This document shows positions 3,278 to 35,605 of a DNA stretch of 64,000 bases, piece by piece (within the stretch, counting starts at the first letter, position 1; every line of letters begins with the position of its first letter). A model generated the notes under the pieces. That model was given only the letters and a program-made list of their open reading frames with translations, did not search any database and was not told where the DNA came from. The position numbers were made by a program, and so were the translations under genes. This DNA is from an uncultured Bacillota bacterium (GTDB lineage: Bacteria > Bacillota > Clostridia > Christensenellales > Borkfalkiaceae). The stretch is taken from contig CASFTB010000008.1 of assembly GCA_949297575.1 (NCBI GenBank), positions 1 through 64,000 of the forward strand. The letters are read 5' to 3'.

Positions 3278-3306
3278 TTGCAAATGCGGGAAGCGTATGT
3301 TATAAT
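3278..3306 (+). promoter_or_regulatory. promoter of the first LytTR/GHKL operon
   Basis: TTGCAA (3278-3283), 17-bp spacer, perfect TATAAT (3301-3306), 79 bp before the response-regulator start. Confidence 0.8.
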
Positions 3307-3384: not shown

Positions 3385-4107
3385 ATGATCAGAGTTGCAG
3401 TCGTGGAGGACAATATGCGGGATCAGGAAACGATCTCTGCTTTTCTGGATGAATATGCCGCAAAGGCGGGTATCCGGTTCGAGATCACCCGTTTCCACGA
3501 CGGGCTTGACTTTTTGGATAAATTCAGATCTTCCGTGTTTGACCTCATTCTTCTGGATGTACAGATGCCGAATATCGACGGTATGGCCGTCGCCGAGCGG
3601 CTGCGCGCGGTGGATACCTTCGTGCTCATTATTTTTATTACGAACATGGGGAGTTATGCCGTCAGGGGGTATGACGTGGGCGCTTCTGCCTTTATAAAAA
3701 AGCCCGTTCTTTACGCCGAGTTCGAGCAGAAGATCAAGAGAGCTCTGTTTACGATCGAGCAGAGAGACAACAAATATTTCTTTATTCCCAGCGGAGGGAG
3801 CCAGGTTCGCGTCATGGTGCGCGACCTCGTCTACGTCGATGTCATGGGGCACATCAGTACCTTTCACATGGTGGGAGGAAATACGTTCAACGCGCGCATC
3901 CCTCTCGGCGTACTTTCCGAACAACTTGCCGCCTATGATTTTATGGCGATCAGTAAAAATTGCCTGATCAATCCCGCCTATATTCGCCGTATCGACACTC
4001 AGAGTGTGGAATTGAACGGATGTACGCTGGATATCAGCAGGTTAAAAAAGAAGTCATTTTTGCTGCAATTCAGCGATTGGCTCGCGAAGGGCGGGAGGAG
4101 CGTGTAA
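3385..4107 (+). CDS. LytTR-family response regulator (AgrA/VirR-like)
   Basis: 240-residue cytoplasmic transcription regulator. The receiver domain occupies about residues 1-120 with acidic pair E8-D9, phosphoacceptor D58 in LILLDVQMP and the conserved KP pair near residue 111. A LytTR DNA-binding domain follows (about 135-235) with the typical ending motif ISKNCLINPAYI. LytTR regulators bind direct repeats about two helical turns apart. The gene is followed after 5 bp by its probable partner kinase, and then by a GH3 glycosidase gene whose promoter carries a 21-bp phased repeat array, the most likely target. The start has AAGAAGGGAAG upstream. Confidence 0.92.
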   Translation: MIRVAVVEDNMRDQETISAFLDEYAAKAGIRFEITRFHDGLDFLDKFRSSVFDLILLDVQMPNIDGMAVAERLRAVDTFVLIIFITNMGSYAVRGYDVGASAFIKKPVLYAEFEQKIKRALFTIEQRDNKYFFIPSGGSQVRVMVRDLVYVDVMGHISTFHMVGGNTFNARIPLGVLSEQLAAYDFMAISKNCLINPAYIRRIDTQSVELNGCTLDISRLKKKSFLLQFSDWLAKGGRSV

Positions 4108-4112
4108 GCTTT

Positions 4113-5453
4113 ATGGCGTTTCTCTTCTTTTATTTGTTCGGTTCGTGGGTCTTTGTCCTCACGCTGTCGATGGGGGAGTTTATTTTTTCTGTCTCCTACG
4201 CAAGGCGGGAGAAGTTTGTTCTGCGCTATCTGTTGTCGAGGGCGGCGGTGTTGGCACTGAGCAGCCTGCCGACGGCGCTGTATTACGTCGCCGACGTGAC
4301 GACGCAGAATGTCGTCGTCTCCAACCTCGCGGTGATCGTCGCCTATCTGATGATGTTCGCGATGGTCGTGCTCTCCATGATGTTCAGCTACCGCGAGCCT
4401 TTTTTGCGCTGCCTCGTTTCGGGGACGCTCGGCTTTCTGTGTCAGAATATTTTTTACGGCGCCTACTTCATCCTGGATGAGCTGACGGGGCTGAACATTC
4501 TCTTGTATTCCGCCCTTTCTTTTCCGGCGGCCTTTACGCTTGCCTTTTTTCTGCAATTGGTCATTGCCGCCGCTGTCCTGGCGGCGTGCTATTTTCTGTT
4601 TGCAGCGCGCGCCATGCGCTATGCCGTATATCCGATGAGCCCGTTGAGTTCTGTCACCATCGCCGCCGTCGCCCTCCTGTTTGTGCTCGTTTTCAACGCG
4701 CTCGGCAATATTTTCAATACCGACAGCACGATGGTCAACGTCTTTGTGCGGCTGCTGCTCATGACCTGCTGCATCGGCATTCTGACTCTCTATGTGATCC
4801 TCGTCAAAGATCAGTTTGTGGAGCGGGAGTCAGCCATCGTTTCTCAGCTGGATGACGAGGTGCGGCGGCACTATACACAGATGAAGGAGACGATGGAGCT
4901 GATCGATATCAAGTGCCATGACATCAAGCATTACATAGCGGCGGCCGGCGCGGGCAAGGGGATCGCCATGGACGAGCTGAAAGATCTCGTGACCATTTAC
5001 GACACTTCCGTCAAGACGGGCAACGATGTGATCGACACCCTCCTTGCGGAGCGCGCCCTGTATTGTTCCACGCACGGGATACGCCTCACAGTCATTGCAG
5101 ACGCGAGCTGCCTGTCCTTCATCTCCACAGGAGATATGTGCTCGCTGTTCGGCAATATGATCGAAAACGCCGTCGAAGCGGTCAGACAGGTGGAAGAGGA
5201 GGACAGGCGCCTGATAAACGTGAACATCCGCCCTGTGGCGGGGCAGGTGTTTTTCAGTGTGGAAAATACGTTCGTCGGCAAGCCCGTGCTGGAAGGCGGT
5301 CTTCCCAAGACGAGCAAACGGGGAGGCGGCTATCACGGATATGGGATGAAGAGCATCCGCATGATCGCCGAAAAATACGACGGCGTCTTTTCTTTCAGCG
5401 CGGAGGGCGGACTTTTCCGCGTTTCCATCCTCTTTCCGACCTCTGCGAAGTGA
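4113..5453 (+). CDS. membrane sensor histidine kinase, GHKL/AgrC type
   Basis: 446 residues. The N-terminal half (about 1-235) is a bundle of six or seven hydrophobic helices with almost no extracellular domain, as in peptide-sensing AgrC-like kinases. A cytoplasmic helix carries the phosphoacceptor H269 in KCHDIKHY, followed by a GHKL ATPase domain with N-box residues N348 and N352 (GNMIENAVEA) and a glycine-rich GYGMKSI box. It lies 5 bp after the LytTR regulator; the ribosome site GGGAGGAG is inside the preceding gene's end. No agrB or agrD-like peptide gene is visible nearby, so the ligand is unknown. I start at ATG 4113 because it gives a clean transmembrane N terminus. Confidence 0.9.
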   Translation: MAFLFFYLFGSWVFVLTLSMGEFIFSVSYARREKFVLRYLLSRAAVLALSSLPTALYYVADVTTQNVVVSNLAVIVAYLMMFAMVVLSMMFSYREPFLRCLVSGTLGFLCQNIFYGAYFILDELTGLNILLYSALSFPAAFTLAFFLQLVIAAAVLAACYFLFAARAMRYAVYPMSPLSSVTIAAVALLFVLVFNALGNIFNTDSTMVNVFVRLLLMTCCIGILTLYVILVKDQFVERESAIVSQLDDEVRRHYTQMKETMELIDIKCHDIKHYIAAAGAGKGIAMDELKDLVTIYDTSVKTGNDVIDTLLAERALYCSTHGIRLTVIADASCLSFISTGDMCSLFGNMIENAVEAVRQVEEEDRRLINVNIRPVAGQVFFSVENTFVGKPVLEGGLPKTSKRGGGYHGYGMKSIRMIAEKYDGVFSFSAEGGLFRVSILFPTSAK

Positions 5454-5489
5454 CCGCCGCCCTTGCGGGAAGGGACGGTCTGCGACGGA

Positions 5490-5562
5490 CAGGACAAAAA
5501 AACGACCATTCAGGACATCTGTGTTTACACGATGTCCTTTTTTTATTATACTCTGTCCTGTC
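5490..5562 (+). promoter_or_regulatory. 21-bp phased AGGACA/TGTCCT operator array
   Basis: Four identical hexamers lie at 5491, 5512, 5533 and 5554, exactly 21 bp apart. The first two read AGGACA on the + strand, the last two read TGTCCT (same motif, opposite strand). Sites 1 and 2 lie upstream of the -35 box, site 3 in the spacer, site 4 just after the -10 box. The outer pair extends to GACAGGACA/TGTCCTGTC and the inner pair to AGGACAT/ATGTCCT. Two direct repeats 21 bp apart is the known LytTR binding geometry, and CAGGACA partly matches the AgrA-type half site. The inner pair followed by a T7 run could also act as an intrinsic terminator of the two-component operon. Confidence 0.7.
5524..5552 (+). 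promoter_or_regulatory. promoter of the first GH3 gene
   Basis: TTTACA (5524-5529), 17-bp spacer, TATACT (5547-5552), placed at the centre of the phased operator array and 62 bp before the start codon. Confidence 0.65.
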
Positions 5563-5568
5563 GAACGG

Positions 5569-5583
5569 GACCGCGGCGCGGTC
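5569..5583 (+). other. 5' leader hairpin before the GH3 ribosome site
   Basis: GACCGC-GGC-GCGGTC, a tight 6-bp GC hairpin 20 bases upstream of the GGAGG site. It may stabilise or tune the leader; no riboswitch family is recognised. Confidence 0.4.
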
Positions 5584-5613
5584 TGTCCGCAAAAAAATTA
5601 TTTGGAGGTCATG

Positions 5614-8600
5614 ATGAAGGAAAAGCTTAGAATGCGCAACGGCATCGTGCTCGCCATTTGGATCCCCATCCTGGCAGTGCTGCTTGCCGTACTGATCGCG
5701 CTGAATGTGTTGGCCGGTATTTTCGGCGGCGTGCTGGATACTTCGCTCGGGCGGGGAGAGCGGCACACGATCAAGCCGGAAAACACCGAAACGTGGGACA
5801 CGGAGTATTATGAGGAGCGGTACGACACTCTGGAAGAGGCTGTCGCCGCGTCTCAGAAGGTGATGAAACAGGTAGACGACGAGGGCACTGTGCTGCTGAA
5901 AAACAACGGCGTCCTTCCCCTCAAGAGCAAGACCGTGACGCCTTTCGGCAGAGGGTATGCTCATCCCATCTACAACGGCATGCAGGAGGGAGGTTCTATC
6001 CTGTATACCCCGCCCGAAAAGGGCATCAGCCCCGAGCAGGCGCTCGAAGAGGGTGGCTTTACCATCATCAGCGCCGCTGCCGACAAACAGCCGGAGGATA
6101 TGGGGCTGACGACGGACGGCGGATTCGGCGGCTACATCCAGGACGACGACGGCTCTTGGATTCAGGTGTTCAAGTATGAAAATTACCCCGATGCGCCGCA
6201 GCGTGCCGAGGGGACCAGCCGCCACAATACCATGTCTTTCGGCGGAGACAATCAGATCCCCGAATTGAAGGTGGACGTCTATAATGACATCCCTTCTTCA
6301 GAACTGGAAAAGATGAAGGATTCCGTCGGGCTGGTGTTCGTCAGCCGCAGCGGCAGCGAGAGCCTGGACAAAAAGGCGGATGCCTATGACGACGGCACTC
6401 CGCACTTCCTTGCCCTCTCCAAAAACGAGAAGGACATGATCGCCTATGCAAAGAAAAACTGCGACAGCGTCATCCTCATCGTCAACTCCTCCAACCCCAT
6501 GGAGCTCATGCCCGTGATGCAGGGCGAGCTGGAGGTTGACGCCATCATCTGGGCGGGTCATCCCGGCGATCAGGGCTTCCGCTCTGTCGCGGATATCCTT
6601 GCGGGAAAGGTCAACCCCTCGGGCAGGCTGGTCGATCTCTTTGCGACCGACTTCACCAAGACCCCTTCCTATAACAACTGGGGCAAGTTCCGTTATACCA
6701 ATGCGGACAAATCTCCTTTCGTAGAATACCGCGAGGGCATGTACAACGGTTACCGCTACTATGAGACCGCGCACGACATCGGTGCAGAAGGGTTCGTGTA
6801 CGGCGAGCTGGACGACATGGGCGGCGTGAAGACGCCCGGAGAAGTGGCGTATCCCTTCGGCTACGGTCTTTCTTATACCACCTTCGAGCAGAAAATTTCC
6901 TCTTTCACTGCAGGGGATACGTTCACGGTGAAAGTGGATGTTACCAACACGGGCGATGTGGCGGGCAAAGAGGTCGTACAGCTATATTATAACCCTCCGT
7001 ACACGGATGTTGACAAGCAGATGAAGATCGAAAAGCCGACCGCGACCCTTATCGCCTTCGGCAAGACGGAGATCATCCAGCCGAAGGATACCAAAAGCGT
7101 CACGCTCTCCTTCGACAAGGACGAGCTCGCCTCCTATTGCTACACCCGCACCAACGGCGACGGTACGACGGGCTGCTACTTCCTTGAAGAGGGAGAATAT
7201 AGCTTCACGCTGCGTGCCAACAGCCATGACGTGATCGAGGAGAGGACATGGGAAAACGCCAATGACATCTGGTACGATAACGATAACCCCCGCCCCTCCG
7301 AGATCGAGATGCAAGCGGCGATGGCAGACGACGGCACCCTTCTCCCTTATCCCGAAAGGACGGCCGAGGATCCGGACGCGACCTTTATCGCCGCGACCAA
7401 CCTCTTCCCGTACATGAGCGAATATATGCAGGAAGAGAGCGAGATGCTGACCCGTGCAGACTGGAACGCCACCCTTCCGTCCACCCGCACACCCGATAAA
7501 GAGGTGAGCGAAAAGTTCTCGGCCATGTTCAATCTCGAGGATACCTTCGATTACAAGACGGATAAAAATCTCGGCAACGTCGAAGGGAGCGCCGTCTATC
7601 GTGATTCCATTGTCGAAAAGGCAGAGAAGACGCTCACCGTCCTTGACATGCGCGGCAAAGACTATTTTGACAAAGATTGGGACGTTCTCCTCGACCAGCT
7701 CGATTATGACGCCGATGCAGACGATATCCGCCAGATCCTCGTCGCGGAGTCCTACTTCACCAACGGCGTCGATTCCATCGGCCTGCCACCCAGCCGCCAC
7801 TGCGAGGGCGCCAACGGCGTCCGCCTCAACAACGGCAACGGCCTCGCTTCCGATGACCGCGATACCTCCGCGTGGTGCATGGCGCCCATGCTGGCATCCA
7901 CCTGGAACACCGAGCTCATCCGCCGGGCGGGCGAGGCGATGGGGCAGGAAGGCCTGCTCAGCGGTAGGCAGGGGCGCATGGCGCCGGCCTTCAACCTGCA
8001 CCGTTCTCCCTTCCAGGGCCGCGTGTTCGAGTATTACAGCGAAGACCCGCTGCTCTCCGGCAAGATGGCGGTCGCCATGGTCAACGGCACCTCTTCGATG
8101 GGCATGTTCGATTACATCAAGCACTTCGGCCTCAACGACCAGGAGACCTACCGCGACAAGCGCCTGAAGACGTGGGCGAACGAGCAGGTCATCCGCGAGC
8201 TGTATAACAGGCCCTTCGAGATCGCCATCCGCGAGGCGCGCAAGACCATCAAATACACGGCAGATCAAGAAGGCACGGTAAAGACCAAGGTGATGCGCGG
8301 CGTATCGGCAATGATGGGTGCACAGAACTGCTTCGGGCCCGTCACCGCCTTCGCCAACTACGACCTGATGACCAAGCTCGTGCGCGAAGAGTGGAACTTC
8401 AACGGCGTGATCATCACCGATATGTTCAGTGCAGGCAGCGATTCTTTCACAGAGCTCACCATCCGCGCGGGCACCGATACATGGCTGGTGTGGCAGGATA
8501 CGAACCCCGCTGTCCATACGGATACGGCGACGGGCAAGTCTCTCGCGCGCACCGCGCTGCACAGGCTCGCCTATACGGTCGCAAACTCTGCGGTCTTGCA

Positions 8601-8781
8601 GGACAGCCCTCCGGGAACGATCATCTACTATGACATGTCCCCCTGGCGCGTGGGCCTGCTGACAGGCACCATCGTCGGCGGCGTCGTGATCGGAGTGCTG
8701 GCCGTCCTGCTTGTACTGCGTACCGTACACAGCATCCGCCACCCCGAGCAGTACCGCACGAAAAAGAAAAAAGAGGCCTGA
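5614..8781 (+). CDS. membrane-anchored GH3 family beta-glycosidase, permuted domain order
   Basis: 1055-residue glycosidase predicted to sit outside the cell, held by a membrane helix at each end (about residues 10-32 and 1015-1038, followed by a basic tail). The GH3 domains are in reversed order: the alpha/beta sandwich comes first (GTVLLKNNGVLPL near residue 90), then a fibronectin-III-like domain starting after the PFGYGLSYTTF signature, and the TIM barrel last. The barrel carries the nucleophile D936 in GVIITDMFSAG. This swapped order is known from Butyrivibrio and Ruminococcus beta-glucosidases. The exact sugar cannot be read from sequence. It follows a LytTR/GHKL pair by 160 bp, across the phased operator array. 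ATG 5614 is chosen over 5611 for ribosome-site spacing. Confidence 0.88.
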   Translation: MKEKLRMRNGIVLAIWIPILAVLLAVLIALNVLAGIFGGVLDTSLGRGERHTIKPENTETWDTEYYEERYDTLEEAVAASQKVMKQVDDEGTVLLKNNGVLPLKSKTVTPFGRGYAHPIYNGMQEGGSILYTPPEKGISPEQALEEGGFTIISAAADKQPEDMGLTTDGGFGGYIQDDDGSWIQVFKYENYPDAPQRAEGTSRHNTMSFGGDNQIPELKVDVYNDIPSSELEKMKDSVGLVFVSRSGSESLDKKADAYDDGTPHFLALSKNEKDMIAYAKKNCDSVILIVNSSNPMELMPVMQGELEVDAIIWAGHPGDQGFRSVADILAGKVNPSGRLVDLFATDFTKTPSYNNWGKFRYTNADKSPFVEYREGMYNGYRYYETAHDIGAEGFVYGELDDMGGVKTPGEVAYPFGYGLSYTTFEQKISSFTAGDTFTVKVDVTNTGDVAGKEVVQLYYNPPYTDVDKQMKIEKPTATLIAFGKTEIIQPKDTKSVTLSFDKDELASYCYTRTNGDGTTGCYFLEEGEYSFTLRANSHDVIEERTWENANDIWYDNDNPRPSEIEMQAAMADDGTLLPYPERTAEDPDATFIAATNLFPYMSEYMQEESEMLTRADWNATLPSTRTPDKEVSEKFSAMFNLEDTFDYKTDKNLGNVEGSAVYRDSIVEKAEKTLTVLDMRGKDYFDKDWDVLLDQLDYDADADDIRQILVAESYFTNGVDSIGLPPSRHCEGANGVRLNNGNGLASDDRDTSAWCMAPMLASTWNTELIRRAGEAMGQEGLLSGRQGRMAPAFNLHRSPFQGRVFEYYSEDPLLSGKMAVAMVNGTSSMGMFDYIKHFGLNDQETYRDKRLKTWANEQVIRELYNRPFEIAIREARKTIKYTADQEGTVKTKVMRGVSAMMGAQNCFGPVTAFANYDLMTKLVREEWNFNGVIITDMFSAGSDSFTELTIRAGTDTWLVWQDTNPAVHTDTATGKSLARTALHRLAYTVANSAVLQDSPPGTIIYYDMSPWRVGLLTGTIVGGVVIGVLAVLLVLRTVHSIRHPEQYRTKKKKEA

Positions 8782-23595: not shown

Positions 23596-24330
23596 ATGTA
23601 TAAGGTTGCGATCATTGACGACGAAAAGGGCGTTGCGGCGGAGCTCGAGGCGCTGCTGCGGGAATACGGCGAAGAACAGAAAGTCGAATTCCAGGTCCGC
23701 AGATATGAGAGCGGAGACGCGTTTCTGCAGAGCGGAGACGCGGATCCGGATATCGTCTTGCTCGACATCAACATGCCGGGCAGCAACGGCATACAGGTCG
23801 CCAAGCGCATCCGCAGGGTGAACGGCGAGGCGATCATCATTTTCTGTACGAATTACGCGCAGTATGCGCTCAACGGCTACGAGGTCAACGCGCTCGGTTA
23901 TCTCATCAAGCCCATCAAAAAGGGCCCGTTCTGGCGCAACCTCGACCGCACCCTCAATGTTCTGCGCAGCAAGCGGAAGGACAAGCTGCTCGTCAAGACC
24001 AAGGACGGGCAGATCGTCGTCAACCCTGCGGACATCGTATATATCGAAGTGGAGCGGCACAACCTGTTTTTCCACATCGTGACGGACAAGGGGCTGGCAG
24101 AGCTGCGCACCCGCGGCACCATGCGCGAGATGTGCGACAGGCTGCAAAACCTGTCGTTCGCCCAGTGCAGCGCCTGCTACCTCGTCAACATGAACCGCAT
24201 CGCCTCCGTGCACAAGGGGGAGGTGATCTGCGAGGGCGGCGCCACGCTCTTTATCAGCCGCAAATTTCAGAAGGACTTCATGGCGCAGTTCATGAATTTT
24301 ATAGAGGAACAGGGCGGGATCAATGGCTGA
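23596..24330 (+). CDS. LytTR-family response regulator, second copy
   Basis: 244 residues. Receiver domain with D8-D9 and phosphoacceptor D57 in IVLLDINMPG, K near residue 109 (LIKPIKKG), then a LytTR domain (about 135-238) with the ending CYLVNMNRIASV. It is a paralogue of the regulator at 3385. It overlaps the kinase gene by 8 bp, so the pair is translationally coupled. It lies upstream of the surface polysaccharide locus, its likely target, though I found no phased repeat there comparable to the first system. Two promoters precede it. Confidence 0.92.
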   Translation: MYKVAIIDDEKGVAAELEALLREYGEEQKVEFQVRRYESGDAFLQSGDADPDIVLLDINMPGSNGIQVAKRIRRVNGEAIIIFCTNYAQYALNGYEVNALGYLIKPIKKGPFWRNLDRTLNVLRSKRKDKLLVKTKDGQIVVNPADIVYIEVERHNLFFHIVTDKGLAELRTRGTMREMCDRLQNLSFAQCSACYLVNMNRIASVHKGEVICEGGATLFISRKFQKDFMAQFMNFIEEQGGING

Positions 24331-25672
24331 GTTTTACAGTGCCGTGATGAAGATCTTTTCTTACCTCGGGGACGAGTTCGTCGTGCAGCTCGTCCTCGTC
24401 GGCCTGCTCTTTTTGGGCTTCCCCAAGCGCAGGCTGTTTTTGCTGCGCTACCTTCCCTGCATCGGCGTCATGATCCTGTCCGAATGGCTGTTCCTCCGCT
24501 ATGTGCCCCGCATCGTGCCGTGGAATTACCTCATACAGGCGGCGTTCCTTGTGGGGACGTGCGCGCTGTGTTACCGCACGGACGCGGTGCAGGCGCTCTT
24601 TCTGGCGGTCTGCATCTACTGCCTGCAGCACATCGTCAGCACTACTTCGTATGCGCTGATCTTTCTCCTCGTGGTCAACGGGTACAGCTTTTTCAGCTAT
24701 GCGGCCGTCATGCTCGTCGACCTCGCCCTCGTGATGGCAGCGGGCTACTTTCTCTGTGCCCGCCCCCTGGCGAAGGCGGGCTCCGTCCGCTTCAACTACC
24801 CCAACCTCATCTACGCGGTGGTCGTCTTCCTCGTCATCGCCGTCTTCCTGACCCATTACGGGCAGCAGGAAGCTTCGTTGGAGGCGCAGATCTACCTGCG
24901 CGGCATCTCCGCGCTGTACGCCGTCGCCACCCTCGTCATGTGCTCCATGAACATCCGCAAGCGCTCTTTGGAGCAGGAAAACAACATCCTGCAGCTTCTC
25001 CTGCATAAGGACGAGCAGCAGTACGAACAGGCGAAGCTCAACAACGAAAAGATCCAGATCAAGTATCACGACATCAAGCAGTGGGAGAACCAGGGCATCC
25101 TCGACTACGCCGTGCTCTCCGAATTGCAGGAGAGCAAACAGTTCATCAACTGCCTGTTCTTTACGGGCAACCGCGCGCTGGATATCATCCTCACCGAAAA
25201 GGCCATCCGCTGCGAGCACGCGGGCATCCGCTTCATCTGCACGGCAGACGGCAAGGCGGTGGACTTCATGAAGCCGCACCACATCTATTCCCTCATCGGC
25301 AACGCGCTGGAAAACGCCATCGAAAACTTGCAGAAGGGCCCGGAAGGGGAGAACCGCGAGCTCGTCGCCTCCGTCGTGCGGCAGAGGGACATGTGCGTGA
25401 TCAAGGTCAGCAACTATACCGAGGAGGACGTCGTATTCAGGAACGGCCTGCCGCACACGAGCAAGCAGGACGCCGAAAACCACGGTTACGGCGTCAAGAG
25501 CATGCAGAACGTCGTGCGCGCCTACGGCGGGGAGATCACGTTCGGGCTCAAAGAGCACATGTTTACCGTGCTCGCCTGCATCCCGCTGCCCGACGATGCG
25601 AACGAGGAGGGGAAGGTCACCCCCCCACCCCCCCCCCGAAAAATGAAGGGGATGCGCGTTAGGGCGAATTAG
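24323..25672 (+). CDS. membrane sensor histidine kinase, GHKL/AgrC type, second copy
   Basis: 449 residues. Six to seven N-terminal membrane helices (to about residue 215), a coiled segment, phosphoacceptor H249 in KYHDIKQWE, then the GHKL ATPase with N-box GNALENAIENL and GYGVKSMQNVV. Organisation matches the kinase at 4113 but the membrane half differs, so the ligands are probably different. The last residues are encoded across C7-A-C10 followed by GAAAAA, so the C terminus (PPPPPPRKMKGMRVRAN) could change by slippage. The start is ATG 24323, overlapping the regulator. Confidence 0.9.
   Translation: MAEFYSAVMKIFSYLGDEFVVQLVLVGLLFLGFPKRRLFLLRYLPCIGVMILSEWLFLRYVPRIVPWNYLIQAAFLVGTCALCYRTDAVQALFLAVCIYCLQHIVSTTSYALIFLLVVNGYSFFSYAAVMLVDLALVMAAGYFLCARPLAKAGSVRFNYPNLIYAVVVFLVIAVFLTHYGQQEASLEAQIYLRGISALYAVATLVMCSMNIRKRSLEQENNILQLLLHKDEQQYEQAKLNNEKIQIKYHDIKQWENQGILDYAVLSELQESKQFINCLFFTGNRALDIILTEKAIRCEHAGIRFICTADGKAVDFMKPHHIYSLIGNALENAIENLQKGPEGENRELVASVVRQRDMCVIKVSNYTEEDVVFRNGLPHTSKQDAENHGYGVKSMQNVVRAYGGEITFGLKEHMFTVLACIPLPDDANEEGKVTPPPPPRKMKGMRVRAN
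25620..25637 (+). repeat. poly-C tract (C7-A-C10) in the kinase gene
   Basis: Homopolymeric C run of ten at 25628-25637 after a run of seven at 25620-25626. Runs of this length slip during replication. The shift would change only the last dozen codons, after the ATPase domain. Confidence 0.85.
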
Positions 25673-25702
25673 ATCCATCTTGTATCCGTGCGGAAAGTTT
25701 GC

Positions 25703-25732
25703 GGAGCGGCAGCTATTGCCGCTCCTTTTTTT
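25703..25732 (+). terminator. terminator of the second two-component operon
   Basis: GGAGCGGCA-GCTAT-TGCCGCTCC followed by T7. Confidence 0.9.
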
Positions 25733-25832
25733 GCGCCCCTCATCCGTGCGGCGGGGGAGGGCGGCCGGGCCCTCTTTTTCTGCGCCGGCGTTGCATCATA
25801 TGCCGCGAATACAGCCCGCGGTGCCACGGGTA

Positions 25833-25871
25833 TTGACATTGCCGCAGATCGGTTATACAATCGGTTTGTAT
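25833..25871 (+). promoter_or_regulatory. promoter of the polysaccharide locus with operator-like palindrome
   Basis: TTGACA (25833-25838), 17-bp spacer, TACAAT (25856-25861). The inverted repeat ATACAA-N5-TTGTAT (25855-25871) covers the -10 and start point. This is the only obvious promoter before the four-gene glycan locus; 25740-25830 shows nothing else. Confidence 0.75.
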
Positions 25872-25917: not shown

Positions 25918-28900
25918 ATGAAGAAGAGGCTTACAGCAATCGTAGCCGTGCTTCTGGCACTCGCAATGTGCCTGGGGCTGGTTACAGCATGCGCTCCCGA
26001 CGAAGGCAAAGAGGGGACGACTTACACCGTCACCTTTGACGCCAACGGCGGCACCCTCAGCGGGAACGCGACAGTCGAAGTAGAGGAGGGGGAAAAGATC
26101 ACCGGTGCTCCTACGGCGAGCAAAGCCGGCTCCGACTTCGACGGCTGGTTTACGGCGGCGACCGCAGGCGATGAGATCGATCTTTCGACCTACACCGTGA
26201 CCGCGGACGTCACCCTCTATGCGCAGTATACGACGTCTTCCGTGACGCCGCCCCCTGCGCAAGAAGATGAGATAGAAGATCCCGTCACCATCACCTTTGA
26301 CGCGGGCGAGGGCACGCTTACCGGCGATGCCACCGTCGTCATCGAGCGGAACACGAGCGTCCCCGCCACGCCCACGGCGAGCAGGGAAGGCTACTGGTTC
26401 CTCGGTTGGTTCACGAAGGCGGAGGGCGGCAAGCGCGTCAACATGATGTACGCCACCTTCGCGGACGATACGACCGTCTTCGCGCAGTACACCGTGCGCC
26501 CCGAAGAATACCGCGTCACCTTCAATGTTCCCGAAGGCGTCGAGATGGACGGCGAACCCGCCCTCATGGTCAAGGAGGGCAGCCTCATTGAAGAAACCCC
26601 TTCCGTCCGCAAAGAGGAGGCGACCTTTATCGGCTGGTTCGATGCGGAGACGGGCGGCACGCAGATCAACTTTGCCACCTTCTCTCCCGAAGAGGACACC
26701 GCCCTGTATGCGCAGTTCCGCGATTGGGAAGCGAAGGCGCTGACCATCGAGGGCGAAGACGCTACGCTCGTCGGCGGTCGTGTTGGAACGGCTTCCAACG
26801 CCAGCGGCGGCGAATATGTGGGCGAGTTCAACACCGTAGGCAACACGATCAGCTTTGCTTTTGAAGCGACCAAAGCGGGAAAAGCAGATCTCGTATTCTA
26901 TATGTCCAGTGCAGATAATTCGCTCAGCATGACGAGCTGGACTTCCAATTATGTGGATCAGACGGTCTCACCCGACAAGTTCTCCTTGACCGTGAACGGT
27001 ACTGAGGTCGACTTTGACGAGCAGACCCTCCGCGGTAGCGGCACCGGTGTGGCGAATGTCTACTGGGATCCCGTCTCCATGGGACAGATCGACGTCAAGG
27101 AGGGCTCTAATACCATCGTCATCACCGTGAAAACGGTCGGCGAGCTGCTGTGGGGCTTCGCTCCTCAGAATGCCAATAAGATGCCGAACGTCGACCGCAT
27201 GGAACTGCGTTCTGACGACCTAGAAGGCGAATTGACGGCGACGGAAGCAGAGACCCCCGATCCCGGCACCGATCCCGATAAGCCTACATACGGCGAACCC
27301 GATATCAAGGTAGAGGCGGAAACCGGTAAGGTCACAGGCACCGTTGCCGGCGGAACTAACTTTATAGAGACGGGCATTGAGACGGCGAGCGGCAACAGCT
27401 GCCTCGGCAGCCTTGCAACGGCAGGCAATACCGTTGAATTGACATTTACGGCAGAAGAAGCGGGTACAGGCGAACTCGTGTTCTTCATGTCAAGCACGAA
27501 TATGAACTGGATGGCAGGCATGACCGTCGAAGATCAGACCGTTGATTCCAGCGTGATGAGCGTTTCTTTGAACGGCGAAGAGCTTACATTTGAAGCGCAG
27601 ACGATCCGCGGTTCCGGTCAGCAGTTGGTCTACAATATGTATTGGGATCCCGTCACCATGGGACAAGTCGATATTAAAGAAGGCTCCAATACCGTTTTGA
27701 TCACAGTGAAAGGGCAGATGCCTAACTTCGATTACATGGGCATTTATTACGGCGGCGCGTCCGTCGGCGGAGAGGTCCTCTACAAAGTCGAAGCGGAAAG
27801 CGGTAAATTTGAAGGTTCGCCTTCGTACAACGATTCCGTAATTGAGACGGGTGTAGCCACGGCGAGCGGCAACAGCTGCGTCGGCAGCCTTTCGGTGGCG
27901 GGCAACAAGCTCACGTACACCTTTGATGCGGATGAAGCGGTGACGGGCAACCTGATCCTCTATATGTCCAGCAACAACGGCACGTTCGATATGACTTCTT
28001 ACCAAATGGTCGTGTCTGACCATGTCGTCACGCCCGACCTGTTCACCGCCACGTTCAACAACGAAAAGCTCACCTTTACGCAGCAGACGGTGCGCGGCTC
28101 CGGCACGAGCGAGTACAATCTGTATTGGGATCCCGTTGACTTGGGCGAAGTGGACGTCGTTGCGGGCGAGAACACGCTCGTGATCGAGGTCACGGTCGCA
28201 CAGGGCCAGCAGATGCCCAACTTCGACTACTTCGTGATCACCACGGGCGGCGCCGTTGCGCCTACCCCCGACCCCGAACCCGTGGCGAACCCTTACGAAA
28301 AGGCAGTTACCTTCGACATGATCGTCGGCCCCTATGCAGGCGGCCCCGCCATCGAAAAGGCTGTGCTGCACTTTGAAGACGCCGTCGCGGCGACCGCTCT
28401 GGAGGATAACCTCTTCGCGATCAGCTATACCAGCCAGGGCTGGTACGGCCCGCAGACGGTGACGCTCGGCCAGGGCTCCGGCCAGACCGTCTACCTCTCC
28501 GACGCGGAGGGCAACAAGGTCGAAGCCGCCACGGCCAACTACGTCACCATCGAGTACACCGTCTCTTACGGGCAGTGGTCCTTCAACGGCAACCTCTCTC
28601 CGTTCACCTATCAGACGGTCAATACCTGGAATGACAGCAGCACCTACACCCTCGCCCTCGGCAGCGGAAAGACGCTGACCATCGGCGAAGAGGAGTACAC
28701 CGCTCTCGAAAACGTCACCGCTCCCGAAGAGTGGACGGTCCCCGACCTCGACGTATGGGATCTGACCGGCACCTACACCGACGTGGAATCCGAGATCACC
28801 CTCACCTACGGCTCTTACGGCACCGACGCCATGAAGAATGACGGGCAGAAGAACCCGCTCATCATCTGGCTGCACGGCGCGGGCGAGGGCGGCACCGATC

Positions 28901-29679
28901 CTTCCGTCGCCATCCTCGGCAACCAGGTCACCAACCTGGCGAAGGAAGGCATTCAGAAGTACTTCACCACCGATACCGTCAAGGGCGCGTACGTGCTCGC
29001 GGCGCAGACGCCCACCGCGTGGATGGATAAGGACGGCAGCGGCGAGTACGGCACCGAAGAAGCTTCGCAGTACTACGTCAAAGCCCTTAAAGGCCTCATC
29101 GACGCGTACATCGAAGAGAACGGCGACATCGATATGAACCGCATCTACATCGGCGGCTGCTCCAACGGCGGCTTCATGACGGTCAACATGATCATCAACT
29201 ATTCCGACTTCTTCGCGGCGGCTTACCCCGTCTGCGAGGCGTACGACGCGAAGTGGCTCACCGATGAAGCGGTAGAATCCATCAAAGATCTGCCCATCTG
29301 GTTCACCCATTCTGCAAACGACAATACCGTAAGCATCTATGACAAGGAAGGCGACGGTTGGACCACCCCCATGACCCCTACGACTCCGCAGGACGCCTAT
29401 ACCAACAACCTGTATATCCGCCTCATCAACGCGGGCGCGACCAACGTGCATTACTCCCTGTTTGAGACGGTCAACGTGGACGGCGTCAACTACGACGGTC
29501 ACTGGTCCTGGATCTATACCCTGCGCGACGAGTGCGTCAACGTCCAGCCCACCGAGGGCGCGGACGGCGACATGACGGTCGCCGATCTCGACCTCGACAG
29601 CACCCAAAAAGTGCAGATCGACGGCAAAGACGTCACGCTGTGGGGCTGGCTTGCCGCACAGGTGAAGGCAGCAGCGTAA
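25918..29679 (+). CDS. cell-surface lipoprotein esterase with InlB-type repeats and three CBM-like modules
   Basis: 1253 residues. Lipoprotein signal with lipobox Cys25 (LVTAC), then three InlB B-repeat/Flg_new-type repeats of about 75 residues (36-105, 120-190, 195-265; each has a FDGWF-like motif and ends LYAQY). Three related beta-sandwich modules follow (about 275-435, 461-610, 621-780), each starting with an I-E-x-E-x stretch and carrying RGSG...YWDPV...EGSNT; they look like CBM6/35-type carbohydrate-binding domains. The C-terminal 450 residues are an alpha/beta hydrolase of the PHB-depolymerase/feruloyl-esterase type: IIWLHGAGEGG oxyanion loop, nucleophile S1082 in GGCSNGGF, and a late HWSW histidine. 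It probably removes ester groups from a polysaccharide. First gene of the locus; GGAGG precedes the ATG. Confidence 0.82.
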   Translation: MKKRLTAIVAVLLALAMCLGLVTACAPDEGKEGTTYTVTFDANGGTLSGNATVEVEEGEKITGAPTASKAGSDFDGWFTAATAGDEIDLSTYTVTADVTLYAQYTTSSVTPPPAQEDEIEDPVTITFDAGEGTLTGDATVVIERNTSVPATPTASREGYWFLGWFTKAEGGKRVNMMYATFADDTTVFAQYTVRPEEYRVTFNVPEGVEMDGEPALMVKEGSLIEETPSVRKEEATFIGWFDAETGGTQINFATFSPEEDTALYAQFRDWEAKALTIEGEDATLVGGRVGTASNASGGEYVGEFNTVGNTISFAFEATKAGKADLVFYMSSADNSLSMTSWTSNYVDQTVSPDKFSLTVNGTEVDFDEQTLRGSGTGVANVYWDPVSMGQIDVKEGSNTIVITVKTVGELLWGFAPQNANKMPNVDRMELRSDDLEGELTATEAETPDPGTDPDKPTYGEPDIKVEAETGKVTGTVAGGTNFIETGIETASGNSCLGSLATAGNTVELTFTAEEAGTGELVFFMSSTNMNWMAGMTVEDQTVDSSVMSVSLNGEELTFEAQTIRGSGQQLVYNMYWDPVTMGQVDIKEGSNTVLITVKGQMPNFDYMGIYYGGASVGGEVLYKVEAESGKFEGSPSYNDSVIETGVATASGNSCVGSLSVAGNKLTYTFDADEAVTGNLILYMSSNNGTFDMTSYQMVVSDHVVTPDLFTATFNNEKLTFTQQTVRGSGTSEYNLYWDPVDLGEVDVVAGENTLVIEVTVAQGQQMPNFDYFVITTGGAVAPTPDPEPVANPYEKAVTFDMIVGPYAGGPAIEKAVLHFEDAVAATALEDNLFAISYTSQGWYGPQTVTLGQGSGQTVYLSDAEGNKVEAATANYVTIEYTVSYGQWSFNGNLSPFTYQTVNTWNDSSTYTLALGSGKTLTIGEEEYTALENVTAPEEWTVPDLDVWDLTGTYTDVESEITLTYGSYGTDAMKNDGQKNPLIIWLHGAGEGGTDPSVAILGNQVTNLAKEGIQKYFTTDTVKGAYVLAAQTPTAWMDKDGSGEYGTEEASQYYVKALKGLIDAYIEENGDIDMNRIYIGGCSNGGFMTVNMIINYSDFFAAAYPVCEAYDAKWLTDEAVESIKDLPIWFTHSANDNTVSIYDKEGDGWTTPMTPTTPQDAYTNNLYIRLINAGATNVHYSLFETVNVDGVNYDGHWSWIYTLRDECVNVQPTEGADGDMTVADLDLDSTQKVQIDGKDVTLWGWLAAQVKAAA

Positions 29680-29700
29680 GCGATTGCGCGGAAATTGAAT

Positions 29701-29805: not shown

Positions 29806-32800
29806 ATGAAACACAGGATCTTGTCCAAAGCCGGATCGGCGTTTGTCGCCATCCTTCTGGCTGTTGCCCTCTGCCTTTCGCTTATCCCCTTGGGGTTTGC
29901 CTCTGCGGCAGAGACGCGGGACTATACCGATGACTATGCTTCGCAGTTCCGTTCGGAAGCGAGCAGCGCGGCGGACGCGCTGCAGCGCGCCAACGAACTC
30001 AACCAGCGCATCGTGGAAGAGGGCATCGTCCTCATGCAGAACGAGAACGACGCGCTCCCCCTGAAGGCGGGCGCCAAGATCTCCGTCTTCGGCAAAAACT
30101 CTACCGACATCATCTTCGGCGGCGGCGGCTCCGCTTCCGGCGCAGACGGTTCCGGTCAGGGCGGCGTGCGCTACTATGATCTGTACGACAGCCTGGAGAA
30201 CGCCGGCTTTGAGACCAACGCCGCGCTCAAGGCATTCTATGAAGATGATTCCCGCTCCGGCGGCGGCCGCGACGGCGGCTCGGGCACCGGTCAGGTCGCG
30301 ACCCTCACCGGCGAAACGCCCGTGGCAAGTTATGACAGCTCTCTGAAGAGCACGTTTACCGAGTACGACGACGCGGCGCTCATCGTTCTCTCCCGTGCGG
30401 GCGGCGAGGGCGCAGACCTCACGACCAATTACGGCGCGAACAGGACCGGCCGCAGCGATTACAACGAGACGGGCGATGCCGCGGACGGCGACCATTACCT
30501 CGAGTTGGACGACAACGAAGAGGACATGATCGAGATGGTCACCGCGGCGGGCTTCGAAAAGGTCATCGTCGTGCTCAACACGGGCACCTCGTTTGAAATG
30601 ACCGGCATCGTCGGCTACGAGGGCATCGACTCCATCCTCTGGATGGGCTTCCCCGGCGGCAGCGGCATCAACGCCCTCGGCAAGGTGCTCAGCGGCGAGG
30701 TCAACCCCTCCGGCAAGACGGTGGATATCTACGCCAAGGACTTCAAGGCGGATCCCACCTTCGCAAACTTTGCGACCAACTACACCAGCTCTTATACGGG
30801 CGCACAGGGCGTCAACTTCGTCGAGTATGACGAGGGCATCTACATCGGCTACCGTTACTATGAGACGCGCGGCTTCGAAGAGGGCGGCACCTGGTATGAC
30901 GACAACGTCGTCTATCCCTTCGGCTACGGCCTCTCCTATACCACCTTCGATTGGGACGTCGAGTTCCTCACCGAAACGCTGACCGAAGACGGCTCCGTCG
31001 ACGTCAACGTCACCGTCACCAACACGGGCGACGTCGCCGGTAAGGACACCGTGCAGCTGTACTACTCCGCGCCCTACGAGGACGGCGGCATCGAAAAGTC
31101 GCACGTCGTGCTCGGCGCGTTCGAGAAGACCGCGCTGCTGCGGCCCGGTCAGAGCCAGACGCTCACCCTCTCCATGACGGTGCGCACCATGGCTTCCTAT
31201 GACTACCTCAACCAGAGCTACGAAGTCGACGGCGGCGGCTACGTCGTCGAAGAAGGGGACTACGACATCTATGTCGGCTCCGATTCCCACGTCTGGGCGG
31301 ACGCGGATGCGGCCAAAAAGACGTACACCCTGGATGACACCTTCGCCTACACCGAGGACGAGACCTCCGGTTCGGACATCGAAAACCGCTTCAACTACAT
31401 GAGCGCGTACTTCTACTCCGAAGATGAGGCGGAAAGCTACTGGACGGACGAGGACGATATCCTCTTCGCGGGGCACTCTTCCCTCATGAGCCGCTCCGAT
31501 TTCGAGGGCACCTTCCCGCAGCCTCCCACGGCAGCGGAAGTCGCCATGAGCGGCCCCGAAGCGACGGCTCTGGACGAAGAGCATCAGAATGCAGACCCCG
31601 AGTTCGACGCAGGGCAGCCCTGGTACACGGATGAAATGCCCAACCAGTCCGAATATCTCATGACGGACATCAAGGCGACCGAGATGGTCGGCCTCGACTA
31701 CGACGATCCCAAGTGGGATGCCTTCATGGATCAGATCCCCGTAGACACGCTGCGCGACGTCATCATCAGCGGCTTCTTCTGGACCATCGAGATCCCCGGC
31801 ATCGACCTGCCCATGTCCATCACGCCCGACGGCCCCACCGGCTTCGTGCAGGGCTCCGGCCTCAACTGGGTCGGCAACACATGCTTCTATGCTTCTCCCA
31901 TCGTCGTCGCCTCCACGTGGAATAAGGAACTGAGCTATGCGCAGGGCCTTGCCATCGGCGAGGAAGGCATCTGGGGCGGCGAGCAGGGCATCCGCGGCGG
32001 TTACAACGGCTGGTATGCCCCCGGCAACAACATCCATCGCTCCCCGTTCTCCGGGCGTAACTTCGAGTACTATTCCGAAGACCCGCTGCTGGCGGGCATC
32101 CTCTGCGGAGAAGTCACCCGCGGCGCGCAGGAGAAGGGCGTGTTCGTCATGATGAAGCACTTCGCCCTCAACGACCAGGAGACCAACCGCGGCGACCTCG
32201 CGACCTGGGCGGACGAGCAGACCATGCGCGAGATCTACCTGAAGGCGTTTGAGATCTCCGTCAAAAACGGCAACGCCACCGGTTTGATGAGCGCGTTCAA
32301 CCGCTTCGGCCACGTCTGGGCGGGCGCCTGCTACGAGGTGCTCACCGAAGTGCTCCGCGGCGAGTGGGGCTTCCACGGCCTCGTCGTCACCGACTGGGTC
32401 AACGGCTTCATGAATGCTTCCAAGATGATCCGCGCAGGGAACGACCTGTGGCTCGCACAGGGCACGGCGTCCAACCTGAGCACGGATGAGAGCGTATGCA
32501 CGCCGACGCACGTCGCCGCGCTGCGCAGGGGCGCAAAGAATGTTATCTACACCGTCGTCAATTCCAACGCGATGAACCGCGTCGCGGATCGCTATTCCGA
32601 CGAGTTCTATGATTACAGCAAACAGCAGTACAGCAAAGACCTCGGCACCGTCGCCAAGGGCGGAGAAGTTTCCTTCGAAGCCGGCAGCAAGGTGTTCGAC
32701 AGCTACTACTATGAACTGGACGGCGCGCCCGAGGGCGTGACCATCGATGAAATGACGGGCGAGATCAGCGGCACCGTCGCCGCGAACGCTCCCGCCGGCA

Positions 32801-33588
32801 AGTACACCATGCACGTCTCGATGTACGACGAGGGCGGATTCATCGGCCAGAGCGCGACCTTCACGCTCACCGTTTCCGGCGGGCTGACCTTCACGGGCAG
32901 CAAGGCGGCAACGGTCGCGGCAGGGGAGTTCTTCTCCGTCGACGTCTCTGCAGCCTACGAGGGCGGTTCCGTTACATACGCGCTCGCATCGGGCAGCACC
33001 CTTCCCGACGGCGTGGCACTCACGGCAGACGGCCGCATCGTCGGCACTGCCGCCGAGGGCTCCATCAAGGCTTCCGTCGTCGCTTCCGCCGAAGACCAGC
33101 AGGATCTGACCACCGAGGTGACCATCACCGTCGGCAAGGCCGGCTCCCTGACCTTCGCGGGCAGCACCCTGACGGCAAAGGCAGGCAAGGAGTTCACGGC
33201 GAACGTCGGCACCGCTACCGGCGCAGACGAGGTCGTCTACACCGCCACCGGCCTGCCCGCAGGCCTGACCATGGCTGCGGACGGCACCATCACCGGTACC
33301 CCCGCAGAGGCCGGCACCTACACCGTCACGGTGTACGCGGGTGCGGCAGGCTGCGACCTCGCCGAGGCTGAGTTCACCCTCACCGTCGAGCAGGTTTCGA
33401 CTTCCACGCCCGATCCCGAGCCTACGCCCGATACCGACCCGGATCCCGACACCGATCCCGAGCCCAAGCCCGAAGAAGAGGGCGGCTGCGGCAGCTTCGT
33501 CGCAGGTACCTCCGCGCTCGTTGCGGCAGGCATGCTCGCGGCTGCGGCTGTCGTTCTGGCGGCTAAAAAGAGGACTGCGAACAAGTAA
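29806..33588 (+). CDS. secreted, surface-anchored GH3 beta-glycosidase with Ig-like repeats
   Basis: 1260 residues. Cleavable signal peptide (about 1-35), GH3 alpha/beta-sandwich first (EGIVLMQNENDALPL near 72), fibronectin-III-like domain after PFGYGLSYTTF, then the TIM barrel with nucleophile D863 in LVVTDWVNG: the permuted GH3 order. Three putative Ig (He_PIG-type) repeats follow (about 950-1205, with the LPAG/LPDG...GTI.GTP pattern), then a Pro/Asp/Glu wall linker and GGCGS, a hydrophobic helix and a KKRTANK tail. This ending resembles clostridial surface anchors and may be processed after GG. It is larger than the two membrane GH3s and is the only one of the three with a cleavable signal. 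Confidence 0.86.
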   Translation: MKHRILSKAGSAFVAILLAVALCLSLIPLGFASAAETRDYTDDYASQFRSEASSAADALQRANELNQRIVEEGIVLMQNENDALPLKAGAKISVFGKNSTDIIFGGGGSASGADGSGQGGVRYYDLYDSLENAGFETNAALKAFYEDDSRSGGGRDGGSGTGQVATLTGETPVASYDSSLKSTFTEYDDAALIVLSRAGGEGADLTTNYGANRTGRSDYNETGDAADGDHYLELDDNEEDMIEMVTAAGFEKVIVVLNTGTSFEMTGIVGYEGIDSILWMGFPGGSGINALGKVLSGEVNPSGKTVDIYAKDFKADPTFANFATNYTSSYTGAQGVNFVEYDEGIYIGYRYYETRGFEEGGTWYDDNVVYPFGYGLSYTTFDWDVEFLTETLTEDGSVDVNVTVTNTGDVAGKDTVQLYYSAPYEDGGIEKSHVVLGAFEKTALLRPGQSQTLTLSMTVRTMASYDYLNQSYEVDGGGYVVEEGDYDIYVGSDSHVWADADAAKKTYTLDDTFAYTEDETSGSDIENRFNYMSAYFYSEDEAESYWTDEDDILFAGHSSLMSRSDFEGTFPQPPTAAEVAMSGPEATALDEEHQNADPEFDAGQPWYTDEMPNQSEYLMTDIKATEMVGLDYDDPKWDAFMDQIPVDTLRDVIISGFFWTIEIPGIDLPMSITPDGPTGFVQGSGLNWVGNTCFYASPIVVASTWNKELSYAQGLAIGEEGIWGGEQGIRGGYNGWYAPGNNIHRSPFSGRNFEYYSEDPLLAGILCGEVTRGAQEKGVFVMMKHFALNDQETNRGDLATWADEQTMREIYLKAFEISVKNGNATGLMSAFNRFGHVWAGACYEVLTEVLRGEWGFHGLVVTDWVNGFMNASKMIRAGNDLWLAQGTASNLSTDESVCTPTHVAALRRGAKNVIYTVVNSNAMNRVADRYSDEFYDYSKQQYSKDLGTVAKGGEVSFEAGSKVFDSYYYELDGAPEGVTIDEMTGEISGTVAANAPAGKYTMHVSMYDEGGFIGQSATFTLTVSGGLTFTGSKAATVAAGEFFSVDVSAAYEGGSVTYALASGSTLPDGVALTADGRIVGTAAEGSIKASVVASAEDQQDLTTEVTITVGKAGSLTFAGSTLTAKAGKEFTANVGTATGADEVVYTATGLPAGLTMAADGTITGTPAEAGTYTVTVYAGAAGCDLAEAEFTLTVEQVSTSTPDPEPTPDTDPDPDTDPEPKPEEEGGCGSFVAGTSALVAAGMLAAAAVVLAAKKRTANK

Positions 33589-33733: not shown

Positions 33734-35605
33734 GTGAGTAAAAAAATCAAACTGTTCGGCGTTCTGCTCTCCTTCGTGCTCTGTTTTGCGCTGCTCATCG
33801 GCTGCGGCCCTTCGGAGAACGGCGGCAACGGCGGCAACGGCGGCAACCAGCAGCAGGAGCTGCAGCCCGGCACCATCACCTTTGAAGACGGCGACTGCGA
33901 GATCATCCGCGGCGTCGCCGATTCCGGCAAGCTCGACCTCGCGACCGCGTCCAACGGCGCGGCTGTCTCCTATGCGATGAGCGAGGAAGAGACCGCCAAA
34001 TTCAACAAAGCGTTCGACAACGCGCTCACCCTCTCCACGGACGGCACCATCAAGGGCACCGCGAGCAGGGTCACAGGCGTCAAGTGCGAGGTCACGGCGA
34101 GCGCCGAAAAGTGCGACCCCGTCACCGCAGAAGTCACCTTCGAGGTCATCTTCCCGTACCTGACCTTTGAGGGCGGCGTCCTCACCGATGCGAGACAGGG
34201 CGTCGCATACGCGGGCACCGTCGCTGCCTTCCTCACCGAGGCAGACGCCGGCGCCGAGTTCGAGATCACCGAGGGCGAGCTGCCCGCAGGCCTCGAGATG
34301 GACGAGTACGGCACCATCACCGGCACGCCGACCGCCACCGACAGGGGCAAGACCTTCACCGTCACCGCTTCCGCGCGCAACTATACCGAAACGTCCGCGG
34401 AATTCACCCTCTCCGTCATCATCAACAACGTCAGTGAGGCGAAGGGCGAGATCATCAACTTCGGCGGCGACGAGCCCACCACGCTCGAAAACGTGTACAA
34501 GGGCTCCTATTACGCCAACCAGAAGGGCGTCGCGGGCAACGCGGCTTCCACAAACAGCAACTACATCACCTACGCGCTCGCCGCGGGTTCCGAGCTGCCC
34601 GAAGGCATCACGCTCTATCCCAACGGCGCGCTGATCGGCTCCGTCGATCCCGACATGTCTCCCGAAGACATCGAGTTTGACGTCGTCGCCTCCGCGGAGG
34701 GCTGCGCAGACGTCACCGCGACGTTCGTGCTCCCCGTCAAGAACGCGCGCATCGTCTTCCCGACCGTCAACGGCCAGCTCACGAGGAGCGAGCCTGCCAG
34801 CTACAGCATCGCCCCCGCTGCCGAACTCAACCCCGGCGTCACCGACATCACCTTCAGCATGGAGGAGGACGACGCCGCCAAACTGAAAGCGGAGTACGGC
34901 CTCGAAGTCACCCCCGAGGGCTTGGTCACGGGCACGCCTACCAAGTCCGTCAAGAGCATGAACTTTGAAGTCACCGCCTCTTCCGACGATTCCACGCCGA
35001 CGACGGCGAGCATGTTCTTCCGCATCATCGAGCCTCTGCAGGCTGCGGATGGCAACAAATTCGAAGCGGAGTACACCAACCTCGACGGCAAGCAGGGCAC
35101 CGGCTATTCGGGCTCTCCTTCCAACGAGTCCCTCATCCAGCGCGAAGAAAACCTGAACATCAGCAATGGCGGCCTGTTTGTCAGCTATCTGCATAACACC
35201 GGCATCACGCTCGAGTTCGTCATCTATGCCGCCGCGGATACCGACGCGAACCTGTCCCTCAGCCTCGGCTCCGAGCTGACGAACATCGCGCTCACGCCTT
35301 CCGCCTTCGGCATTACCGTCTACAACGGCACGCAGGAGCCTTCGGGCAGCGGCACCGAGCTGCAGTACGGCAGCGTCACCGTCACCGGCGGCGGCGCGAT
35401 GTGGACGTATGCGGCGTTCGCGGAATACAGCTTCGGCTCCGTGCACCTTACCAAAGGGTACAACGTCATCCAGCTGCAGATCCGCTCCAATTCGTTCAGA
35501 GACGGCGCGACCGGCGGCCCGGGCGTAGACTACCTCAGGTTGGATACGTCCACGGCGCTCACCTGGAGCCCCTGTCTGTACAACCTCGACCTTATCAGCG
35601 TATAA
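33734..35605 (+). CDS. lipoprotein with Ig-like repeats and C-terminal CBM-like domain
   Basis: 623 residues from a GTG start five bases after GGAGG. Lipoprotein signal with Cys24 (LLIGC), then an NGGNGGNGG linker coded by a 9-bp tandem repeat. Four or five putative Ig (He_PIG-like) domains follow, each with the L-P-x-G-L/I ... G-T-I/L-x-G-T-P pattern. The last 150 residues (KFEAEYTNLDG... VDYLRLDTS) resemble the CBM-like modules of the esterase. There is no catalytic domain, so it is likely a surface glycan-binding or scaffold protein. It is separated by 19 bp from the next GH3 gene, so the two are cotranscribed. Confidence 0.78.
   Translation: MSKKIKLFGVLLSFVLCFALLIGCGPSENGGNGGNGGNQQQELQPGTITFEDGDCEIIRGVADSGKLDLATASNGAAVSYAMSEEETAKFNKAFDNALTLSTDGTIKGTASRVTGVKCEVTASAEKCDPVTAEVTFEVIFPYLTFEGGVLTDARQGVAYAGTVAAFLTEADAGAEFEITEGELPAGLEMDEYGTITGTPTATDRGKTFTVTASARNYTETSAEFTLSVIINNVSEAKGEIINFGGDEPTTLENVYKGSYYANQKGVAGNAASTNSNYITYALAAGSELPEGITLYPNGALIGSVDPDMSPEDIEFDVVASAEGCADVTATFVLPVKNARIVFPTVNGQLTRSEPASYSIAPAAELNPGVTDITFSMEEDDAAKLKAEYGLEVTPEGLVTGTPTKSVKSMNFEVTASSDDSTPTTASMFFRIIEPLQAADGNKFEAEYTNLDGKQGTGYSGSPSNESLIQREENLNISNGGLFVSYLHNTGITLEFVIYAAADTDANLSLSLGSELTNIALTPSAFGITVYNGTQEPSGSGTELQYGSVTVTGGGAMWTYAAFAEYSFGSVHLTKGYNVIQLQIRSNSFRDGATGGPGVDYLRLDTSTALTWSPCLYNLDLISV

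Follow-up and report, generated by a model that had tools for sequence, protein, structure and literature searches.

Two-component systems (TCS) that pair an AgrC-type kinase with a LytTR regulator are usually taken as devices for peptide quorum sensing; what, then, would one of them be doing next to a surface glycosidase? The question is raised by positions 3385 to 8781 of the window, that is, the 64,000 nucleotides analysed here (positions 1 to 64,000 of contig CASFTB010000008.1, assembly GCA_949297575.1) from an uncultured Bacillota bacterium of the Borkfalkiaceae. Three genes follow one another there on the plus strand: a response regulator (RR) with a receiver and a LytTR DNA-binding domain (3385..4107; Pfam PF00072, 6e-18, and PF04397, 2.2e-8), an AgrC-like GHKL histidine kinase (HK) with an HDIKH box (4113..5453; Pfam PF14501, HATPase_c_5, 6e-20), and a membrane-anchored GH3 glycosidase with transmembrane (TM) helices at its N- and C-terminus (5614..8781). 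This compact order, reported in a preliminary description of the locus, was verified together with both gaps (5 bp between RR and kinase, 160 bp between kinase and GH3). The reading that we favour, with a probability of roughly 0.6, is that of a repeated, self-contained cassette in which the AgrC-like kinase and the LytTR regulator control the promoter of the adjacent GH3, a member of a subfamily with permuted domains, in response to a signal most likely derived from a glycan or glycoside. Gene order, conservation, catalytic residues and operator-like repeats were computed; binding, activation and insulation are what we infer, as is the kind of signal.

Is the arrangement more than a chance adjacency? 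The genome, a 1.67 Mb metagenome-assembled genome about 92% complete, carries 15 LytTR, 14 GHKL and 28 GH3 genes, 27 of the GH3s being permuted. (Genes on the analysed stretches were called by a codon-usage open reading frame (ORF) caller, and the expected values given throughout come from simple Poisson or shuffle models that ignore kinship among loci.) Every LytTR gene has a GH3 within 8 kb (15/15), and for 24 of the 28 GH3s a LytTR gene on the same strand is no more than 12 kb away, where 5.4 would be expected by chance. The four beyond that distance are a gene of classical length (contig C3), two genes near contig ends (one on C14, one on C30) and the GH3 that closes the second cassette of the window. 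About 14 cassettes can be recognized in the genome, usually in the order RR, HK, (lipoprotein), long GH3, lipoprotein, short GH3. The repetition of the pattern at 23596-38702, from which the preliminary description had argued against chance, was verified as a second copy with two GH3s and two lipoproteins, and the argument is borne out by the genome-wide linkage. At one regulator locus (L063:1352-2095, G000:C9), the protein matches LytTR and not the receiver domain in Pfam, and has no adjacent kinase; it is possibly degenerate or an orphan.

An order confined to this one genome would, according to the preliminary description, have refuted its reading, and it had called for counts of LytTR, GHKL and GH3 genes occurring together. 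That refutation does not apply: the RR-HK-(lipoprotein)-GH3 order is kept in relatives and in a second family of the same order, and recurs across Firmicutes and Actinobacteria. The expansion itself is common to just three of the 24 other genomes of the genus (with 12, 10 and 16 LytTR, and 19, 18 and 25 GH3 genes), the remaining ones having 0-1 LytTR and few GH3s; in several of these, the single LytTR adjoins a GH3 (G017, G023 and, from coordinates, G002). The second family reaches up to 22 LytTR genes and 66 GH3 candidates per genome, the extreme of the expansion being a 1.8 Mb genome (G182; loci L194 and L195; GH3 candidates from a first look). Across 21 genomes, picked to span high and low counts, the numbers of LytTR genes and GH3 candidates are correlated (rho 0.89, the GH3s being unscored first-look candidates that possibly include classical ones), and LytTR and GH3 numbers have expanded in parallel in several lineages. 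Among 80 loci with a permuted GH3 from named Firmicutes and Actinobacteria, a non-random sample retained by query similarity in which LytTR played no part in the selection, 40 are flanked by a LytTR gene and 41 by a GHKL kinase; Lachnospiraceae, Oscillospiraceae, Coriobacteria, Alloscardovia, Cellulomonas, Streptococcus and Fusibacter are among the carriers. When 18 named genomes were examined in full, a LytTR gene was present within 8 kb for 38 of 55 permuted GH3s (2.5 expected), and for 3 of 35 classical GH3s that stand isolated (1.2 expected). Chance adjacency is excluded by the linkage counts in this and in the named genomes.

A regulator acting on its neighbour should have its operator upstream of it, and direct repeats were searched for upstream of GH3 genes for this reason: the sites recognized by LytTR proteins are direct repeats of 9 bp with a spacing of 10-13 bp (PMC11347149), and AgrA sites are located upstream of promoters (PMC4227749). 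The window GH3 is preceded by a predicted promoter (TTTACA-17-TATACT, 5524..5552, plus strand, consensus scan), and immediately upstream of its -35 element stands an AGGACA/AGGACA direct repeat (5491..5517, plus strand) whose copies start at 5491 and 5512, a 21-bp period identical to the peak lag found genus-wide, as a candidate LytTR operator. An inverted partner with the same period, TGTCCT/TGTCCT, lies on the -10 side (5533..5559, plus strand; copies starting at 5533 and 5554) and forms nested inverted repeats with 5491-5517, a palindrome that folds far more strongly than shuffled sequences (z -4.6). A hairpin followed by a T-run, between kinase and GH3 (5512..5538, plus strand; missing from the terminator-scan listing), may be terminator-like or a palindromic operator. 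At the equivalent place of a relative (G001), AGGAC repeats with a lag of 20, an inverted repeat and a TTGACG-17-TATACT promoter were read by eye. The RR-HK operon starts from another predicted promoter, of the sigma-A type (TTGCAA-17-TATAAT, 3278..3306, plus strand, consensus scan only). The window GH3 thus probably has its own promoter under the control of the adjacent regulator, and a single RR-HK-GH3 operon is not favoured, as the hairpin and the predicted promoter precede the GH3.

To what extent could this operator be generalized to other cassettes? In 53 regions that precede the first gene behind the TCS, collected genus-wide, the lags of 9-mer direct repeats have their maximum at precisely 21 bp (13/53 regions, against 1.4 expected from dinucleotide shuffles), and no other lag ever exceeds 3. 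Elsewhere in these loci, unrelated intergenic regions have a raised repeat background without a single dominant lag (9/100 at lag 21, against 2.8 expected, and 7-8 at lags 19, 25 and 30). The 21-bp peak recurs in independent sequences from other genera (14/46, against 1.2 expected). In several cassettes (L083, with TTTTTGCCA; L102, with AACACGAAT; L077; L062), a matching repeat word stands both at the RR promoter and at the promoter of the GH3 or first target. The words found in this double position are TTTTTGCCA, AACACGAAT, a AAGTGCGAC-like word and TAAGTTCGT. Matched RR/GH3 promoter pairs outscore mismatched ones over 32 cassettes (permutation p 0.009), and the words vary from cassette to cassette, as expected of insulated switches.

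The glycosidase to which these regulators are linked belongs to a particular group, a point missed in the preliminary description. Its domains are ordered GH3_C (93-381), Fn3-like (454-537) and GH3_N (760-959; Pfam, numbered from 5611), so that the window GH3 is a member of the permuted-domain, GlyA1-like subfamily. The predicted model (predicted local distance difference test, pLDDT, 83; predicted template modelling score, pTM, 0.87) matches the solved structures 5k6l-o (GlyA1) and 5wug along the full length (E about 1e-50, TMt 0.74-0.76 and 959-977 columns for 5k6l-o). The nucleophile Asp936 and the acid/base Glu249 (numbered from 5614) have counterparts in nearly all of 59 aligned GH3 sequences; for this reason the permuted GH3s look active, as predicted beta-glycosidases, and pseudoenzymes are ruled out for nearly all of them. 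The exception is a copy (L072:11499-14822, G000:C14) that lies close to the end of its contig and has no TCS in front of it; the sole permuted GH3 of the set with altered acid/base-loop residues, including a change at the Glu position, it is a possible pseudoenzyme. The residue after the nucleophile varies widely, and this suggests that the substrates have diversified.

Does each kinase recognize the enzyme that it is coupled to? RR and HK distances are correlated as in cognate pairs (Mantel 0.64); the distances of GH3s to either are weakly and borderline correlated (Mantel r 0.13-0.19), and strong co-diversification of kinase and GH3 was not found. The G001 GH3 is 91% identical to the window GH3, with an RR and an HK merely 35-40% identical to those of the window; the DNA similarity begins about 10 bp upstream of the GH3 start codon, and the flanking genes of the two cassettes differ. 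Because a near-identical GH3 adjoins diverged regulators, with similarity starting at the GH3, GH3 genes appear to have been exchanged between regulators, and a comparison of window 5604-8762 with L080 4559-7714 suggests an exchange of the gene between two species, the breakpoints coinciding with the ends of the coding sequence. In most close relatives of the cassettes elsewhere, all three genes are retained. It could be argued from these differing flanks and breakpoints, and from the hairpin behind the kinase and the GH3's own predicted promoter, that the TCS and GH3 simply co-travel on mobile or duplicated segments, the GH3 being expressed independently. We regard such a neighbourhood without regulation as very improbable, since it leaves aside the LytTR-spaced repeats at GH3 promoters, in some cassettes present at the RR promoter too, the recurrence of the linkage in distant phyla, and the lack of such linkage for classical GH3s.

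The same exchange bears on the idea of a trigger enzyme, in which the membrane-anchored GH3 or a lipoprotein would be part of the sensor, contacting the kinase and reporting substrate occupancy. TM segments at both termini of 50 of 57 GH3s (hydropathy count), a kinase without ectodomain and a lipoprotein domain nearly confined to the cassettes (10/11 strong copies) would all suit such a role, but GH3 and kinase trees are weakly congruent, and the 91%-identical GH3s adjoin two kinases of 40% identity. This shuffling argues against a kinase recognizing its own particular GH3 protein, and we hold the trigger-enzyme mechanism to be quite unlikely. The preliminary description had called the signalling pair directly coupled to the glycosidase: regulatory coupling is supported by the conserved order and the LytTR-type repeats at GH3 promoters, while the GH3's own predicted promoter and the weak co-diversification speak against a tight coupling of sensor and enzyme.

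What could the kinase sense? Its model (pLDDT 87.7) has about 6-7 transmembrane helices and no ectodomain, and the best PDB match of its cytoplasmic, catalytic half is the AgrC kinase of S. aureus (6e95, Foldseek). His269, Asn352 and Gly409/411 are invariant across 28 relatives; conservation is lowest in the membrane half (mean identity 21%, against 37% in the catalytic half). These properties, together with the LytTR regulators, would fit kinases that detect peptides, whether from the cell itself or from its neighbours, so that surface glycosidases would be turned on through quorum or competition sensing and not by glycans; the fold is that of AgrC, and pheromone receptors likewise diverge fastest in their membrane part. 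We nevertheless consider peptide signalling unlikely. In the genome, at about 92% completeness, there is no match to AgrB (PF04647), the absence of which had been stated in the preliminary description and is confirmed, nor to the C39 peptidase of peptide exporters (PF03412), and the 64 cassette intergenic regions, to which the search for an AgrD-like precursor was confined, contain no conserved small ORF. Classical self-peptide signalling is unlikely because none of these three components was found, and membership in the agr systems is rejected for want of AgrB, despite the AgrC-like kinase and AgrA-like LytTR regulator. Moreover, the LytTR regulators YpdB and BtsR of E. coli serve nutrient sensing, so that a LytTR domain does not imply peptides.

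The preliminary description had suggested glycan fragments or a peptide from neighbours as the input. With glycosidases as target genes, an input derived from glycans or glycosides is the most economical inference. The cassette would then function as follows: a signal, in all likelihood a glycan or glycoside of plant or host origin or a breakdown product, would be read within the membrane by the AgrC-like kinase, leading to phosphorylation of the LytTR regulator. The regulator would bind the paired direct repeats, which are spaced by two helical turns and immediately precede the GH3 promoter; in several cassettes it would bind at its own promoter as well. The output would be one set of surface glycosidases (the GH3, in many cases accompanied by a lipoprotein and another GH3), and cassettes with diverged kinase membrane halves and operator words would probably act as parallel, insulated switches. 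Several observations weigh against this reading. A strong 21-bp repeat is present in about a quarter of the cassettes only; the signal at the regulator's own promoter is weaker and noisier, and the match between RR and GH3 operators is supported by four or five cassettes. In the window itself, the AGGAC motif is not clearly present at the RR promoter (rank 31 in the RR/GH3 promoter matching). The repeat is also found at 10 of 40 permuted GH3s without a nearby TCS, which implies that some regulators act at a distance or that the repeat has other readers. Finally, the kinases resemble peptide receptors in fold, and the weak co-variation of kinase and GH3 is not what one would expect of kinases that each respond to what their own enzyme produces.

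The second cassette of the window, on the plus strand throughout, comprises a LytTR response regulator (23596..24330), a GHKL kinase (24323..25672, with a start at 24323 or 24347), a secreted lipoprotein with Flg_new repeats and an esterase-like domain (25918..29679), a long permuted GH3 with a signal peptide and a C-terminal TM helix (29806..33588), a second lipoprotein with a cassette-specific C-terminal domain (33734..35605) and a short permuted GH3 that has TM helices at its N- and C-terminus (35625..38702). The C-terminal domain, of about 180 aa, occurs at 35042-35599 of the window, at L075:10350-11042 and at nine other cassette loci (alignment A4), and the first lipoprotein after the TCS, at 25918-29679, also contains three weak copies of it (A4). 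Of its strong copies in the genome, 10 of 11 are inside GH3 cassettes and the remaining one is on contig C29. No significant match was obtained in Pfam or PDB profile searches, and its FEAE start is CBM6/35-like by eye only. On the minus strand of the window, 53931-57689 encodes a predicted lipoprotein of 1252 aa without NCBIfam match.

How do these cassettes compare with known systems? In Butyrivibrio proteoclasticus B316, each of the three LytTR regulators lies near a GH3 that is secreted and ends in a TM helix (PUL7, 21 and 33), and a common function was proposed for these neighbourhoods (Kelly et al. 2010, PMC2914790). The LytTR gene beside a secreted GH3 is a shared feature, but three copies there compare with 15 LytTR genes and 27 permuted GH3s in 1.67 Mb here, and the available part of that account is without operators, permuted fold, breadth or module shuffling. 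The permuted subfamily was defined by GlyA1 (PDB 5k6l; Ramirez-Escudero et al. 2016, PMC5104943), with which the GH3s described here have domain order, catalytic Asp/Glu and full-length fold in common, whereas most of them differ in having TM helices at both ends and a variable post-nucleophile residue; neither 'two-component' nor 'transmembrane' occurs in the text of that paper. Among open-licence papers, nothing was found on scale, operators, parallel expansions or shuffling. The Butyrivibrio neighbourhood and the permuted GH3 fold were already known; scale, operators and shuffling appear to be new.

The definition of a Gram-positive polysaccharide utilization locus (gpPUL) requires a transporter, and in one such locus, Ros-7, a kinase accompanies a LytTR regulator (Sheridan et al. 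2016, PMC5320581). The cassettes share the regulator and the carbohydrate-degrading enzyme, and no transport system is evident among the genes called inside them, not every flanking gene having been profiled; the strict gpPUL class, which needs the transporter (PMC5320581), is not assigned, and each cassette would work as a minimal locus of this kind without a transporter of its own. With agr (AgrCA) they share the AgrC-like GHKL kinase fold and the LytTR regulator, but no AgrB or peptide precursor was found, and the neighbouring target is a glycosidase. We class the cassettes as Gram-positive carbohydrate loci governed by an AgrC/LytTR-type pair rather than as agr systems, and they tie a widespread group of such pairs to one enzyme subfamily. 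Candidate operators and linkage turn the input of these sensors into a concrete, testable question; if the proposed reading is true, it would amount to modular, sensor-per-enzyme regulation in Gram-positive gut bacteria, would account for some genomes of 1.7-1.8 Mb keeping up to 22 LytTR systems, and would offer a route to the substrates of permuted GH3 enzymes. A broader view, which we advance tentatively and with rather less than even confidence, is that ectodomain-less AgrC-like kinases may make up a large receptor family for glycans or glycosides in which every member is connected to a surface glycosidase of its own, as mix-and-match modules that expanded in parallel in several small-genome gut lineages, the Gram-positive counterpart of the one-sensor-per-polysaccharide strategy of Bacteroides.

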